NCBI GenBank assembly: GCA_005878385.1
Contig: VBMN01000077.1
Location: 1 to 33,096 of the forward strand
From: Methanobacteriota archaeon
GTDB lineage: Archaea > Thermoplasmatota > Thermoplasmata > RBG-16-68-12
Length of the DNA: 33,096 nucleotides
Direction of reading: 5' to 3'
Shown here: positions 11,035 through 23,178 of the stretch, one piece after another
Layout: every line of letters begins with the position of its first letter
How positions within the stretch are numbered: the first letter of the stretch is position 1
Made by a program: the position numbers and the translations under genes
Notes under the pieces: model-generated
What the model was told of the DNA's origin: nothing
The model's database searches: none
The model's input: only the letters and a program-made list of their open reading frames with translations

Positions 11035-12621
11035 TCAGGTGTAAACGGCGATGCTGGCGTAGTCAATCAGTTGCGAGTACCACAGCGTACGCGTCGTGAG
11101 GTCCGCGTCGTTCAGGTGGTCGTACGGGTTGTAGGTGGCTCCCCACCGGGTGAGGATCGCCCCGTACGTCATGCCCGCGGGGCCTGCAATGCCGGACACA
11201 ATGATCGTCACCTTGTAGGTGCCCGCGTTCGTGAAGGGCTGGGGCCAGTTGATTTGGAACGGGTTCTTCGCTGCGAGGAAGATCTCCGAAGGCAGGCCTC
11301 CCCCGTCCTGGTTCGACGGGTTGATGTCGACCACGGCCGCATAGGCGAAGGTGGTCGGGGTGACCGCGCTCCCCGGGTACACGACGAGCCCGCCAGCGTT
11401 CGCCGCCTTGGTCGGATCGACCGGCTTCACGATGAACGTGGAGCAGGGAGTACCCACCGTGGCGGAGCACAGGGGCGCCGCCCCTCCGCTGGTTCCTTCG
11501 AAGGTGATCGCGGTGAAGCCGTCAAAGAAGATCGTTCGGTTCCCGTGATCCGACATCTTCAGGTGGAACAGCTCTCCGCCCAGATTGTTGAACTGGGCCC
11601 GCGTCGCTCGATAGGGGGAGAACGTGGTGGCCGAGTTGTACGGGTTGTTGAGATTCGTCACCCAGAATCCACTCGGAATCACTTGGACGAAACCGATGTA
11701 CTGCCAAGGGGTCGACGAGGAGCTTCCCCCGCCACCGACCGGTTGCTCCACCGTCAAGACGAGTCGGGAGTTCGCCGCGTTGCCCTTTATATCCGTCGCG
11801 TTCAACAGGATGATGGACCCGTCCCAGTTGAGGTTCGGGAACGGTGGATTTACGCAGACACTCGAGCCAAACGAGAAGATCCCGTCGCCCGCCACTCGGT
11901 CCGGCGCGATCCCGTCGTCCCGCATCTTCTGGGGTTGCTCGCACGCATTGCCGGTCCCGAACCAAATCGAGAGCGTCGCGTACACCGAGTTCGGATTCAG
12001 GTCGCTGTCGGGATCCACGACTTGCGCGTAGATCGCGAAGCCGAGATGTTCGTTCACGGGATCGATCCCGGACGTGGAAGGAATGCCGTCGGCCCACTTC
12101 TCCACGAAGACCGGGGGTCGCGCTCCCGAGGATGCGTTGATCGCGGACCTCCATTCGACCACGCTCTTCGTGAGGTCCGCCACTGTGATCGTGATCGCGT
12201 CGGTCGATCGGAGAGAGAAGCTCTTGTACGCCCATCGCTCGCCGGCATCCCAGACGCTGTCGCTGCCGTCCACGAGCCCGCTCGCGGGCGAGAGAGCGCC
12301 GTTATAGGGATGCAGCGTCACGACGTCGGTCACGAGCGGGTTATTGCCGCGCGCCGACGTCACGTAGATCCGGGTCGCCACGGGATCCAAGCGGTCGCCG
12401 CCCAGATGCCGGACCGTGATATTCACGCCGACCTCGACGCCCCCGACAATGACCGGATTCATCGTGGATTCCATGTCCAAACGTGACTGTGCGGTCGGAG
12501 TGGGGATGTTCGTGACCCAGATGATGATGGTCGAGAACAGGACGACCGTCATTGCCAGGATCAGGATCGTGCCGATGACTTCCGACACACCCGACTCGTC
12601 TTCGCGCAGGATCACTTTCAT
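11035..12621 (-). CDS. Large secreted protein with archaeal type IV pilin N-terminus
   Basis: The N-terminus (SGVSEVIGTILILAMTV, about residues 10-36) is the archaeal type IV pilin motif: a short charged head, then a hydrophobic helix, processed by a prepilin peptidase and used for assembly or membrane anchoring. The 528-aa length is far above that of ordinary pilins (about 120-200 aa). After a pilin-like segment, residues about 190-320 contain an Ig-like module with RDDGIAPDRVAGDGIFSF, like the surface-protein 'choice-of-anchor X' domain. A Ser/Gly-rich linker (GGGGSSSS) leads to a C-terminal beta-rich domain. Two Cys pairs may form disulfides. The ATG at 12621 has GGGAGG eight bases upstream and a TATA box further up. 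Confidence 0.88.
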   Translation of the reverse strand: MKVILREDESGVSEVIGTILILAMTVVLFSTIIIWVTNIPTPTAQSRLDMESTMNPVIVGGVEVGVNITVRHLGGDRLDPVATRIYVTSARGNNPLVTDVVTLHPYNGALSPASGLVDGSDSVWDAGERWAYKSFSLRSTDAITITVADLTKSVVEWRSAINASSGARPPVFVEKWADGIPSTSGIDPVNEHLGFAIYAQVVDPDSDLNPNSVYATLSIWFGTGNACEQPQKMRDDGIAPDRVAGDGIFSFGSSVCVNPPFPNLNWDGSIILLNATDIKGNAANSRLVLTVEQPVGGGGSSSSTPWQYIGFVQVIPSGFWVTNLNNPYNSATTFSPYRATRAQFNNLGGELFHLKMSDHGNRTIFFDGFTAITFEGTSGGAAPLCSATVGTPCSTFIVKPVDPTKAANAGGLVVYPGSAVTPTTFAYAAVVDINPSNQDGGGLPSEIFLAAKNPFQINWPQPFTNAGTYKVTIIVSGIAGPAGMTYGAILTRWGATYNPYDHLNDADLTTRTLWYSQLIDYASIAVYT

Positions 12622-12672
12622 GGATTGGCCTCCCGGTGGGCTTCGGGATGTAGACTTGCACCCGAGCCGACG

Positions 12673-12682
12673 ATATATAAAG
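12673..12682 (-). promoter_or_regulatory. TATA box of the pilin-anchored protein gene
   Basis: TTATATATCG on the minus strand, preceded by ACTT, is a strong archaeal TATA box about 57 bases before the ATG at 12621. It predicts a leader of roughly 30 bases that contains GGGAGG, so this gene, unlike most here, should use a Shine-Dalgarno. Confidence 0.7.
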
Positions 12683-12806
12683 TGTTCGCGGTAGTTACCA
12701 CGACCACAAAGTCTGATTCTCACTCATGGAGGGAATTGAGGCTCGAAATGGGCGGTTTCCGGGGTCTTTAGCCGAACGACCCTATGGCGTGGTGGCCACT
12801 TCAAGA

Positions 12807-16990: not shown

Positions 16991-17251
16991 TCATAACGTG
17001 CGAATCTTGTCCGCGACGAAGGCGCGGATTTCGGCGTCGTCCGGAATCGTCAGGGAGCGCTTGAACCGCTCGGTCTTGTCGGGCAGGTAGTAGCCTCGGG
17101 AGACGGAGATGAATTCGTTCGTGCCGTCCGAAGTCTTGGCCCGTTTCCGCGCCACCTCCAGGAAGTTGTTCCGCCCGAAGTTCACCTTCTCGGATTTGAT
17201 CGTCTCGAACTGCACGTCCACGTTGCGCCGGCCTCTCTCCTCGTTTTCCAT
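16991..17251 (-). CDS. Conserved archaeal small protein (86 aa)
   Basis: A compact basic protein: NVDVQFETIKSEKVNFGRNN, FLEVARKRAKTSDG, FISVSRGYYLPDKTERFKRS, then an acidic helix to the C-terminus. The Lys/Arg-rich, beta-strand-like pattern would suit a nucleic-acid-associated protein, but no family name can be given with certainty. The start ATG at 17251 has GGAGG about nine bases upstream and a TATA-like GGTTAATATC at 17323-17332 on the minus strand, giving a leader of roughly 50 bases. It is divergent from the CPBP protease gene. Confidence 0.75.
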   Translation of the reverse strand: MENEERGRRNVDVQFETIKSEKVNFGRNNFLEVARKRAKTSDGTNEFISVSRGYYLPDKTERFKRSLTIPDDAEIRAFVADKIRTL

Positions 17252-17419: not shown

Positions 17420-19426
17420 ATGCAGTGCGTCCGCTGCGGGGCGTTGTTCGACGGACGCTTTTGTCCCCGATGCGGTACGCCCGCCATGGCGTCCGCCCCA
17501 TCCTTCGCGGCCCCGCCGAGTCCCGCCGGCTGGCCCTGCCCCCGGTGCGGTACCTTGTTCAGCGGGAACTTCTGCCCGCGGTGCGGTCTCCCGATGGGGG
17601 CCTGGGCGGCCCGACCGCCGCCCTCCAGCATGCGACCGGTCCTCTCGGTCCTGTGGACGTTGGCGATCATCGCGTTCATCGTCTTCGCTGTCACGGACTT
17701 CGCGGGACTCGCCGTGAGCCCGACCCTCATCGTACCGGGAATCCAAGGCATCCAATCGGGACAAACGGTGAACAGCGGGATGGACTTCAACGGGAACTGG
17801 ACCTTCGATTCCTGGGGCACGGCGTCGACGCCGTCGTACCAGGCCACGGGCGGAAACCAGGGCGGCTTCCTTGATATGACGTTGTTCGGAACCGGTGCGC
17901 GTGGGTTCTGGATGCAACCGTTCCGGGTCGACGGTTCTCTCCCCTACACCGCAAGCGTCCGCCTGGACCTGGAGATCGTGGGGGGACTGACGTCCGGCCG
18001 GCTCCTCGTCTCGGTCGACAGCTCGAGCTCCGTCCCCGACCCGGCGACTGCGATCACTGTGCTGACCTTTTCCGGGCCGACCGCGTGGACTTCGACCGGG
18101 CGCCTCAGCGCGGACGCGCGGCTCGCGAGCCCGGGTCTGTACTACCTCAAGATCGCCTTCCTCGTCGACAGCGCCTCGGGTCCGGTCGACGTGGGATTCG
18201 ATAATGTGCGCCTCGCGTGGACCACGGATGCGGCGGTCGTCCTCTACGTGCCGATCCCGCTGCCGTATCCTGTCATCATAACGCAGGACAAGTCCCTCTT
18301 CCTTTCCTACTATGGTCTCATCACCGCGGCAATCTTTCTCATCGGTGGGTACTACGTCGTCCGAGAGCGGAAAGAAATCTGGCGTGCATTCAAGGCGCCA
18401 ATCGAATCGATCGGCACCCGACTCCGGAGTCGGAGCGCCTGGATCGCCGTCGGCCAGGTATGGATGGCGGTCACGTTCTTCCAGGTCGCCCTGATTTCCC
18501 TGCTGACTCTGGCCGGTATCGAGCCGACGTCACCCATCAACCTCACACCTCAGAACGCGTGGGTCCTCCTGTTCGAGCTCGCGAACGCCGGAGTCTACGA
18601 GGAAATCATCTTCCGACTCGTCCTGATCGGGGTCCCGATGGCCCTCGGATCGGTCGTCCTGCGGATCATGGACGTGAACCGCGGTGCGACCGGCAACGGC
18701 TCCGGATCGGCGGGACGTTACATCGCCGGGGCATGGCGATACCTGATCGGCGGCGTCCTGCGGCGTGATTCGCCGAAAGAAGCCCTCGTCGCCGCGTGGG
18801 CTTTCCTGTTCGCCAGCTCCGCGATCTTCGGGCTCGCGCACGCGCCCGGCTGGGGCTGGTGGAAGGTCGTCCCGAGCATGGTCGCAGGCCTCGGCTTCGG
18901 CTATCTCTTCCTGCGCCATGGAGTGGGAGCGGCCATCCTCGCCCATTTCGTCAATGACTATGCCCTGTCCCTTACCTATGAAGGAATTGGCGGCGCGGGG
19001 CTCGAGGCCCTGATCAGCCTTGTTTTCATCGGACTGGCAATCGCGGGTGCGGGGTTCCTCATCTGGTACGCGATCGACGCGTGGCGCCACTTGACGGGGC
19101 TCGCGGCCCGGTTCCGACCTCCGACCCGTGTCCCCACGCTACCGCCTCCCACCCCGTATGTGGCTCCGACCCCGCCGTCCTTCGCGATCCCCCCCACTCC
19201 GTTCCCGAGCCCTCCCACAGCCGCATGGTCACCGAGTCCACCCGCCGCGTCGCCGGGCGTCGCATTCCGCGATCCAGGACGGATACCCCGAGAGTACACG
19301 CCCTCCTACGCGCCTCCACCCTACGGATATCCGCCGGTCCGGTTCCAATGCCCCTATTGCGGATGGGTCGAGGCCCGGTACGAGGCAGGCCGGTTCACGT
19401 GCACTCGGTGCGGTCGTGCGGCCTAG
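17420..19426 (+). CDS. CPBP-family intramembrane metalloprotease with zinc ribbons at both ends
   Basis: The 668-aa protein has an unusual order. Two short zinc ribbons open it (C3/C6/C15/C18 and C40/C43/C52/C55), then a membrane helix (about 71-95), an external beta-rich domain of about 190 residues (resembling a jelly-roll carbohydrate-binding fold; inference), a second helix, and a CPBP/Abi protease core with all three motifs: EEIIFR (394-399), FGLAHAPG (H474) and HFVND (H509, N512, D513). A Pro-rich linker leads to a third zinc ribbon at the C-terminus (C-x2-C-x14-C-x2-C). CPBP enzymes cleave within membranes, as in CAAX processing. The stop overlaps the UPF0201 gene's stop at CTAG. Confidence 0.9.
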   Translation: MQCVRCGALFDGRFCPRCGTPAMASAPSFAAPPSPAGWPCPRCGTLFSGNFCPRCGLPMGAWAARPPPSSMRPVLSVLWTLAIIAFIVFAVTDFAGLAVSPTLIVPGIQGIQSGQTVNSGMDFNGNWTFDSWGTASTPSYQATGGNQGGFLDMTLFGTGARGFWMQPFRVDGSLPYTASVRLDLEIVGGLTSGRLLVSVDSSSSVPDPATAITVLTFSGPTAWTSTGRLSADARLASPGLYYLKIAFLVDSASGPVDVGFDNVRLAWTTDAAVVLYVPIPLPYPVIITQDKSLFLSYYGLITAAIFLIGGYYVVRERKEIWRAFKAPIESIGTRLRSRSAWIAVGQVWMAVTFFQVALISLLTLAGIEPTSPINLTPQNAWVLLFELANAGVYEEIIFRLVLIGVPMALGSVVLRIMDVNRGATGNGSGSAGRYIAGAWRYLIGGVLRRDSPKEALVAAWAFLFASSAIFGLAHAPGWGWWKVVPSMVAGLGFGYLFLRHGVGAAILAHFVNDYALSLTYEGIGGAGLEALISLVFIGLAIAGAGFLIWYAIDAWRHLTGLAARFRPPTRVPTLPPPTPYVAPTPPSFAIPPTPFPSPPTAAWSPSPPAASPGVAFRDPGRIPREYTPSYAPPPYGYPPVRFQCPYCGWVEARYEAGRFTCTRCGRAA

Positions 19427-22182: not shown

Positions 22183-23178
22183 ATGGCCAAAAAACCCCGG
22201 CGGGAGCGAGACGACGAGGATCGGCCCGAGAGTTTCTGGAAGGGGCTCGCGCGGGACGCCCTCGTCGCCGGCCTGATCGTCACGGTGTTCTTGGGTGCGC
22301 TGTACCTCTACGCGGGGGTATGGCCGCCGCTCGTCGTCGTGGAGAGCTCATCGATGCAGCACGGCAGTGAGGCCTCGAGCCTCGGCGTGATCGATACCGG
22401 CGACATGGTGTTCCAGCAGGCCGCATCCACCCGCAGTTCCATCATCACGTATATCGAGGGGCGAGCGACCGGCTACGCGACCTACGGAGACTATGGGGAT
22501 GTCATCATCTTCCGCCGCGCCGGAACGCCGACGCCCATCATCCACCGGGCGATCATGTACATCACGCTCCACGCGAACGGGACGGCGGACGTGCCGGACA
22601 TCCTTCTGTTGCCCAGGGCGGAGTGGGTGGCGCAGAACGCGACCGGGACGACCCAGGTCCCGATGTACCTGAAGTCTCTCACGATCCGGCACATGGGATT
22701 CGAGCACAACATCAACATGACCTTCGCCTTCGGCGCGTACCCTGTGGGACCGCGGACCGGCTTCGTGACGATGGGAGACAACAACTCGTTCCGTCAGTGC
22801 CGCACTCAACGGGACGATTGTCGAGATGGCTACGACCCGATCTCTACCATGCCCCGCCTGGAGGACGTCCAAGGACGGGCGCGCGGCGAGATCCCGTGGC
22901 TCGGGCTCGTCAAGCTCACCCTCCAGCCGACCGACACCTGCTGTGCGAAGGGCTGGGGGGATCCCGAAGCCCCGAAGAACAGCTGGGACAGCCTCCTCAT
23001 CACGCTGATTTTCCTCGTCGCCCTCCCGTTCATCCTCGAATTCGCGGCCCGCGGGTGGACAAAGTTCGTGTCGCCACACCTACCGGAGATTCACTGGCCC
23101 TGGAGGAAATCGAAGGCCCCTCTGGACGATCAGGCGGATCCCGAGGGACCTCCCGACTGGGAAGATCAGGAACCCTAG
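22183..23178 (+). CDS. Archaeal signal peptidase I (S26B family)
   Basis: The enzyme removes signal peptides from exported proteins at the membrane. A basic N-terminus is followed by a membrane helix (about 29-49), then SSSMQHG with the catalytic Ser57, DTGDMV, the PIIHRA segment with His121 in place of the bacterial Lys, and MGDNNSF with Asp199. This Ser/His/Asp set is the archaeal/ER type. The 331-aa length exceeds many archaeal homologues: an insertion of about 60 residues lies between His121 and the GDN motif, and a second membrane helix with a basic, Pro-rich tail closes the protein. Its last codon overlaps the cdc6 stop at CTAG. Confidence 0.93.
   Translation: MAKKPRRERDDEDRPESFWKGLARDALVAGLIVTVFLGALYLYAGVWPPLVVVESSSMQHGSEASSLGVIDTGDMVFQQAASTRSSIITYIEGRATGYATYGDYGDVIIFRRAGTPTPIIHRAIMYITLHANGTADVPDILLLPRAEWVAQNATGTTQVPMYLKSLTIRHMGFEHNINMTFAFGAYPVGPRTGFVTMGDNNSFRQCRTQRDDCRDGYDPISTMPRLEDVQGRARGEIPWLGLVKLTLQPTDTCCAKGWGDPEAPKNSWDSLLITLIFLVALPFILEFAARGWTKFVSPHLPEIHWPWRKSKAPLDDQADPEGPPDWEDQEP

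Follow-up and report, generated by a model that had tools for sequence, protein, structure and literature searches.

A probable CPBP-type intramembrane protease of Thermoplasmatota that carries tethered zinc-ribbon-like modules on both termini

The locus and its neighbourhood

The window (the whole stretch of DNA that was analysed, 33,096 nucleotides) contains a gene whose product combines cysteine ribbons, transmembrane helices and a beta domain in one chain (Table 1). A sequence-only reading had proposed an intramembrane protease here. The coordinates and the frame that it gave are correct, the gene being a single open reading frame of 668 aa, and the Pro-rich linker that it described ahead of the third ribbon was found as well. 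Eight helices are compatible with hydropathy and with a predicted structure of the full-length protein, which is a weak model (pLDDT 48.8 overall and mostly below 50 in the core) that was used for the beta domain only. A further weakly hydrophobic stretch at residues 269-287 in the hydropathy profile was taken as not membrane-spanning.

Table 1. Positions of the protease gene, its parts and selected neighbours in the window. Counts out of 40 loci score loci truncated by contig ends as misses.
Feature	Position	Strand	Evidence or remark
Pilin-like neighbour, 562-aa short form	11035-12723	-	Pilin_N PF07790; without the beta domain
86-aa protein, divergent neighbour upstream of the protease	16991-17251	-	Present in 21/40 loci
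Ribbon-ribbon-TM-beta domain-CPBP-ribbon protein, 668 aa	17420..19426	+	Translation without internal stop
Zinc ribbon 1 (C3, C6, C15, C18)	17426..17485	+	Each Cys in 23/23 non-gap rows, 25-row alignment
Zinc ribbon 2 (C40, C43, C52, C55)	17537..17593	+	Cys in 23/23 or 23/24 non-gap rows; Zn_ribbon_3 stretch 39-58, below cut-off
First transmembrane helix TM1, about residues 74-92	17639..17695	+	Hydropathy; helix 72-98 in the low-confidence model
Predicted extracytoplasmic beta domain, residues 108-270, TM1-TM2 loop, MAM/CBM-like jelly roll	17741..18229	+	Structure model and structural alignment
CPBP transmembrane core TM2-TM8, about residues 292-548	18293..19063	+	PF02517 at 378-514; hydropathy
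Motif 1 EExxxR (E394, E395, R399)	18599..18616	+	Invariant in 25/25 and 61/61 rows
Motif 2 histidine H474	18839..18841	+	Invariant in 25/25 and 61/61 rows
Motif 3 HxxxD (H509, D513)	18944..18958	+	H kept in 61/61 rows; residue +4 is D or N in 61/61
Pro-rich tether, predicted cytosolic, 95 residues, 29% Pro	19064..19348	+	Sequence composition
Zinc ribbon 3 (C644, C647, C661, C664), 4 residues short of the C-terminus	19349..19411	+	Each Cys in 23/23 non-gap rows of 25
Signal-peptidase-like gene	22183-23178	+	No Pfam match at E 0.01; downstream of the protease in 21/40 loci

In 30 of 40 loci, with loci truncated by contig ends scored as misses in this and the following counts, a gene for an RNA-binding-domain protein (PF01877) lies convergent to and directly downstream of the protease gene. 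It is followed further downstream by the genes for the DNA polymerase small subunit (PF04042; 25/40) and Cdc6/Orc1 (PF09079; 20/40). Another downstream gene is presumably signal-peptidase-like, to judge from its motif. For the 86-aa protein encoded upstream, 14 of the 21 genomes searched have a match, own genome included; identity in the 13 others is 68-94%, and Pfam gives no match at E 0.01. The protease gene is thus syntenic across loci, which points to a stable place and mostly vertical inheritance but does not single out a partner. Because the 86-aa gene is divergent and the RNA-binding gene convergent, neither can share a transcript with the protease gene in the window. A regulator in the protease operon is thereby ruled out for the window, and no candidate regulator or operon partner was found in it.

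Conservation and distribution of the core and the ribbons

PF02517 (Rce1-like) was found by a Pfam scan at residues 378-514, its score of 40.9 bits (E 2.6e-10) lying above the cut-off of 22.4. Residues E394, E395, R399, H474 and H509 are invariant in an alignment of 25 rows with identities down to 30%; position 513 is D in 21 of them and N in 4. The conservation was followed in a wider set of 61 rows, composed of 40 fetched neighbourhoods and the best loci of a search of the phylum. Its rows were chosen by the core profile at E 1e-3, so that plain CPBP proteins such as the own-genome paralogue L042 are not included. The five catalytic residues are present in 61/61 rows, and N or D is found four residues past H509 in all of these. 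The CPBP active-site motifs that had been claimed are thus all present and invariant in both sets, and loss of the catalytic Glu and His residues, which would have spoken against the claim, was seen in none of the 61 rows. Placement by hydropathy puts the glutamates in TM4 and the histidines in TM5 and TM7. No PDB sequence matched the protease core, whether the query was the family profile (E 1) or the own-genome paralogue (E 10). The motifs (EExxxR, His and HxxxN/D) are those of the CPBP/Rce1-like proteases (PF02517; MmRce1, PDB 4cad), and hydropathy is compatible with their eight helices. The residues needed for glutamyl proteolysis by MmRce1, according to a review (PMC12067869), are conserved in 61/61 rows here. 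By its sequence the window protein is probably a glutamic intramembrane protease of the CPBP/Rce1 type.

The two four-cysteine ribbons claimed for the N-terminus and the one claimed for the C-terminus were found with conserved spacing. Each of the 12 cysteines is conserved in 23 of the 23-24 rows that have a residue at its position (25-row alignment, down to 30% identity), close homologues included. Pfam zinc-ribbon models stayed below their cut-offs for the window protein: Zn_ribbon_3 (PF13248) gave 22.2 bits against 27, Zn_Ribbon_TF (PF08271) 18.3 against 29 and DZR (PF12773) 15.1 against 27.3. Zn_Ribbon_1 (PF13240) is above its cut-off of 25 at the N-terminus of two relatives (L072 and L092). 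Because the Pfam models were only grazed, the identification of the ribbons rests on cysteine spacing and conservation, and judged by these the ribbon cysteines are more than a chance pattern. In the C-terminal ribbon an aromatic residue occupies one fixed position in 36/36 distinct versions and Ala another in 32/36. Such conservation beyond the cysteines suggests a putative binding surface. The C-terminal ribbon matched Zn_Ribbon_TF (TFIIB) with E 0.0017 in the window protein and with E 0.0065-0.028 in 3 of the 9 relatives scanned. Among sequences of solved structures, the family alignment came nearest to eS27 at the C-terminal ribbon (E 0.0072); at the N-terminal ribbons the nearest were eL43 and Nop10 (E 0.06-0.2). 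An S27e model was matched by 1 of 25 members (E 8e-5). These resemblances are taken as leads only. The N-terminal ribbons of the window protein and its relatives also resemble double-zinc-ribbon models weakly. The tether between TM8 and the C-terminal ribbon varies from 30 to 141 residues (40 rows). When nine genomes including the own were searched with the C-terminal ribbon, the six matches at E <=7e-6 were all this protease, the others having E >=0.03. A search of plasmids for ribboned CPBP proteins with the single query L064 gave no match, a result of little weight.

Full-length relatives with 49-84% identity occur in the same genus. In the set of relatives 53 of 61 genomes match, own genome included, one of them (G005) through the beta domain of a neighbouring gene only and another (G060) through a ribbon only. 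The search of the Thermoplasmatota gave matches in 61 of 146 genomes (49 of the 106 best assemblies), some of them consisting of ribbons alone or short pieces of the core; the loci taken from it (L085-L103) are the best-scoring ones only. No match was obtained in 85/146 genomes, so that in many lineages the enzyme would be either expendable or highly diverged. The group was assigned to the Thermoplasmatota from record titles and tree labels. The own genome, which is 77% complete, encodes one further PF02517 protein, the ribbonless L042 of 286 aa.

For the tallies of ribbons and topology two repeats (L043 of L084 and L099 of L076) were dropped, which left 59 distinct rows. A ribbon at one or both ends is present in 51 of these: 33 rows from 12 families have N- and C-terminal ribbons, 11 the N-terminal and 7 the C-terminal ones only, and 8 have neither. 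The sequence-only reading had called for a search for the same domain order, and the ribbon-CPBP-ribbon part of it recurs in these 33 rows, all from the one phylum. N-terminal ribbons were tallied in stop-to-stop frames, with ATG, GTG, TTG or a contig end upstream of each; if ATG starts alone are allowed, the numbers become 30 rows with both, 9 with the N-terminal and 10 with the C-terminal ribbons only, and 10 with neither. On the tree the ribbon states require 14 changes, against a mean of 24.1 for shuffled states and a possible minimum of 3. So the states are clustered by lineage, yet ribbons were gained or lost repeatedly, because 14 changes are far above the minimum. In one genome of family f1 (L030/L053) the C-terminal ribbon is missing from all three forward frames around and behind the stop, and a contig end is not responsible. 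The row L055 is truncated by a contig end, so that its absent C-terminal ribbon is not evidence of loss. As judged from these searches, the ribboned CPBP protease is a recurrent family of the Thermoplasmatota, though far from universal. In a relative from outside the class (L089:1462-3801, minus strand) a long N-terminal part that precedes the CPBP core matches DUF7743 (29.5 bits against 27) and weakly the Ig-like Big_13.

The beta domain, the pilin-like neighbour and the membrane topology

Modelled in isolation, the beta domain reached a pLDDT of 83.1 and a pTM of 0.80. It was aligned by VIA-align with meprin beta (4gwm; Z 14.3, rmsd 4.0, 150 aligned), in a region which we take to be MAM, and with CBM4, CBM16 and CBM27 (Z about 11). 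The jelly rolls of Eph receptor and gingipain scored similarly, and the top match in Foldseek was CBM11 (E 9.6e-7). Among the 50 matches listed, MAM and CBM4, 11, 16, 27 and 61 gave Z 10.9-14.3 over 132-156 residues. The identity to these structures is only 6-15%. The domain remained without a Pfam match at E 1, and no PDB sequence came below E 0.3. According to the model it is a jelly-roll beta sandwich of the common MAM/CBM type. The domain was seen only in family f1. The domain order described by the sequence-only reading therefore holds for the window protein but is not general as regards the beta domain, a short loop being present instead in the 9 aligned rows outside f1. Two f9 relatives (L066:8883-10679 and L067:7703-9976) carry a different long insert, likewise predicted to be extracytoplasmic, in the TM1-TM2 loop; in L066 it matches Big_5 weakly (E 0.041). 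These sequences make the loop appear to be a site of insertion.

When the open reading frames of 42 loci were searched with a profile of the beta domain, a pilin-like FG-GAP protein was the sole match other than the f1 proteases. It is encoded about 5-8 kb upstream of the protease in f1 and carries the domain in nine f1 loci (L044 and L046-L053), within residues of about 660-1340 and with single-domain E values of 1e-17 to 4e-37. For the L044 protein Pfam finds FG-GAP repeats and Pilin_N. The counterpart in the window is a short form, as is that of the sister genome G008 (538 aa), whereas in several other f1 genomes the protein reaches about 1370-1480 aa and includes the beta domain; no window reading frame other than the protease carries it. 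By this comparison the second half of the pilin-like gene was lost or replaced in the window lineage. A tight pairing of the beta domains of the two proteins is weakened as an idea, the window and G008 keeping the domain in the protease only. In a midpoint-rooted tree of 13 protease and 9 neighbour beta domains each kind forms one side of a branch (support 98/99), a pattern that fits one old duplication. The last 60 residues of the pilin-like orthologues show no obvious membrane anchor, some of these reading frames being truncated by locus or contig ends.

Under a model with both termini inside, the loops placed inside are richer in Lys and Arg in 59/59 rows. The raw medians are 17 inside and 1 outside, counts that favour the longer inside loops; per residue and with the tails excluded, the medians are 0.193 and 0.027. 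Both tails with all ribbons are therefore predicted to be cytosolic and the beta domain to be outside. The claims of cytoplasmic ribbon-bearing ends and of an external beta-rich domain agree with this prediction, the latter also with the jelly-roll model. The beta domain should be outside as well because it is homologous to a part of the FG-GAP/pilin-like protein and has a CBM-like fold. In the plain paralogue of the own genome the corresponding TM2-TM3 loop is basic too, as judged by eye, and the charge pattern may be a feature of many prokaryotic CPBP proteins. Residue counts from the ends of the loops would place H474 close to the outer face of the membrane and both E394 and H509 roughly in its middle. 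The review PMC12067869 describes both termini of MmRce1 as facing the lumen. Taking this account, the predicted topology of the family would be inverted relative to that of MmRce1, and cleavage of cytosolic CAAX proteins would be unlikely. The predicted site in the middle to outer part of the membrane likewise speaks against an Rce1-type -aaX cleavage of prenylated cytosolic proteins.

A possible function and its alternatives

Compared with MmRce1, the window protein has in addition terminal zinc ribbons, Pro-rich tethers and a beta domain that is predicted to be extracytoplasmic, and its termini are predicted to be cytosolic where PMC12067869 has those of MmRce1 in the lumen. The NCBIfam model matched by most members (15/25 at E <=0.01) is NF041647, an ABC transporter permease/CPBP fusion; the window protein reaches only 17.3 bits against its cut-off of 435 and is without the permease part. 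PMC6588880 names zinc ribbons and CPBP as separate examples. Neither zinc ribbons in CPBP proteases nor CPBP proteins in Thermoplasmatota were met with in the freely accessible literature searched. The catalytic kind is already known; for the ribbon-CPBP-ribbon order no description was met with in this literature, and the genome searches covered one phylum.

The reading that we favour, tentatively and at somewhat less than an even chance, builds on the observed architecture, its conservation, the intact motifs, the synteny and the homology that links the beta domain with a part of the neighbouring protein. It sees the enzyme as an envelope-facing intramembrane protease, with ribbons on tethers for docking to a partner in the cytosol and, in f1, with a jelly roll for surface recognition. 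Eight helices would hold both ends in the cytosol, and E394 and H474, helped by H509 and D513, would hydrolyse a membrane-anchored substrate within the bilayer. Because the predicted site lies in the middle-to-outer half of the membrane, the likely substrates would be the anchors of exported or surface proteins and not cytosolic CAAX proteins; the myxosortase MrtX, a CPBP enzyme acting on anchors of surface proteins, sets a precedent for this. Through the ribbons on their Pro-rich arms the enzyme would engage its partner in the cytosol, by which the substrate would be delivered, received or licensed, and in f1 the jelly roll in the TM1-TM2 loop would add recognition of a surface glycan or a surface protein. 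The coupling of a partner to proteolysis through the ribbons, as the sequence-only reading had it, is reasonable since the core is intact, the ribbons are conserved and the tails are predicted to be cytosolic; a candidate for such a partner was not found among the neighbouring genes of the window. Against the favoured reading stand the CPBP relatives with other chemistries, the 8 of 59 rows without ribbons, the missing C-terminal ribbon of L030 and the 85 of 146 genomes without a match. The mismatch of the beta domains in the window and G008, the lack of an operon partner in the window, the opposite topology described for MmRce1 and the poor quality of the full-length model also count against it.

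The cytosolic partner could be replaced by the transcription apparatus if the enzyme released a membrane-held transcription regulator by regulated intramembrane proteolysis, its ribbons binding DNA, RNA polymerase or the regulator; release of a membrane-held regulator was the example given by the sequence-only reading. The predicted cytosolic position of the ribbons would suit this, as would the grazing match of the C-terminal ribbon to Zn_Ribbon_TF (TFIIB; 18.3 bits, and also in 3/9 relatives), but the ribbon scores are under the Pfam cut-offs, ribbons this small resemble many others (eS27, Nop10, eL43) and the window has no regulator in the protease operon, which leaves this explanation unlikely. 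Instead of docking a partner, the N- and C-terminal ribbons might be structural and keep the assembly together by pairing among themselves or with another subunit. That they occur at both ends in 33/59 rows and that the N-terminal ones are weakly like double-zinc-ribbon models would agree with such pairing. The 11 rows with N-terminal ribbons only (one of them, L055, truncated by a contig) and the 7 with C-terminal ribbons only do not, and the long Pro-rich tethers of many rows favour reach over rigid packing; we regard structural pairing as improbable too.

Sorting or shedding of surface proteins, for instance of the FG-GAP/pilin-like neighbour, by cleavage at their C-terminus in the manner of myxosortases is another alternative. 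Myxosortases (MrtX, MrtJ, MrtS and MrtC) are all CPBP enzymes; MrtX, of 239 aa, cleaves the C-terminal anchors of exported surface proteins according to PMC11980579. An active site in the outer half of the membrane under the N-in model, the beta domain common to the protease and the pilin-like protein some 5-8 kb away in f1, and weak matches to MrtS, MrtJ, MrtC and Mrt_core (1-3 of 25 members each, best E 0.00067-0.0027) all point this way. The window protein, however, reaches only 13.9 bits with the MrtJ model against a cut-off of 75, the remaining Mrt models giving no match at E 1, and no sorting tag was identified. The N-terminus of the neighbour is that of a type IV pilin, and the C-terminal ends of its orthologues, some of them truncated, show no obvious anchor. 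Mrt enzymes are also not known to carry zinc ribbons. A myxosortase-type role is thus rather doubtful. The protein might also have a CPBP fold without proteolytic activity and serve, for instance, as a scaffold or as an esterase, or transfer lipid or acyl groups; other chemistries have precedents among the relatives. One of them in S. aureus is reportedly involved in lipoprotein N-acylation, and DidK is an esterase. The MmRce1-type residues for glutamyl proteolysis, as far as the review describes them, are nevertheless retained in 61/61 rows, and we consider a non-proteolytic function the least probable of all.

If the favoured reading of an envelope-facing protease with docking ribbons is followed, the ribbons could be used as baits for partners and the external domain as a bait for ligands, which bare enzymes without such handles do not offer, and the predicted topology would tell which side of the membrane is cut. 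The family that offers these handles is stable in its genomic position, invariant in its catalytic residues and equipped with docking-like appendages that are conserved. In PMC9263693 a review table lists five CPBP-type enzymes for Haloferax volcanii, with a null mutant without growth defect. A bolder version, which we hold to be very unlikely, is that of an outward-facing enzyme whose ribosome-like ribbons would attach to the machinery of translation or export. Anchors of surface proteins would then be clipped during synthesis, with the TM1-TM2 loop as a socket for lineage-specific sensors.
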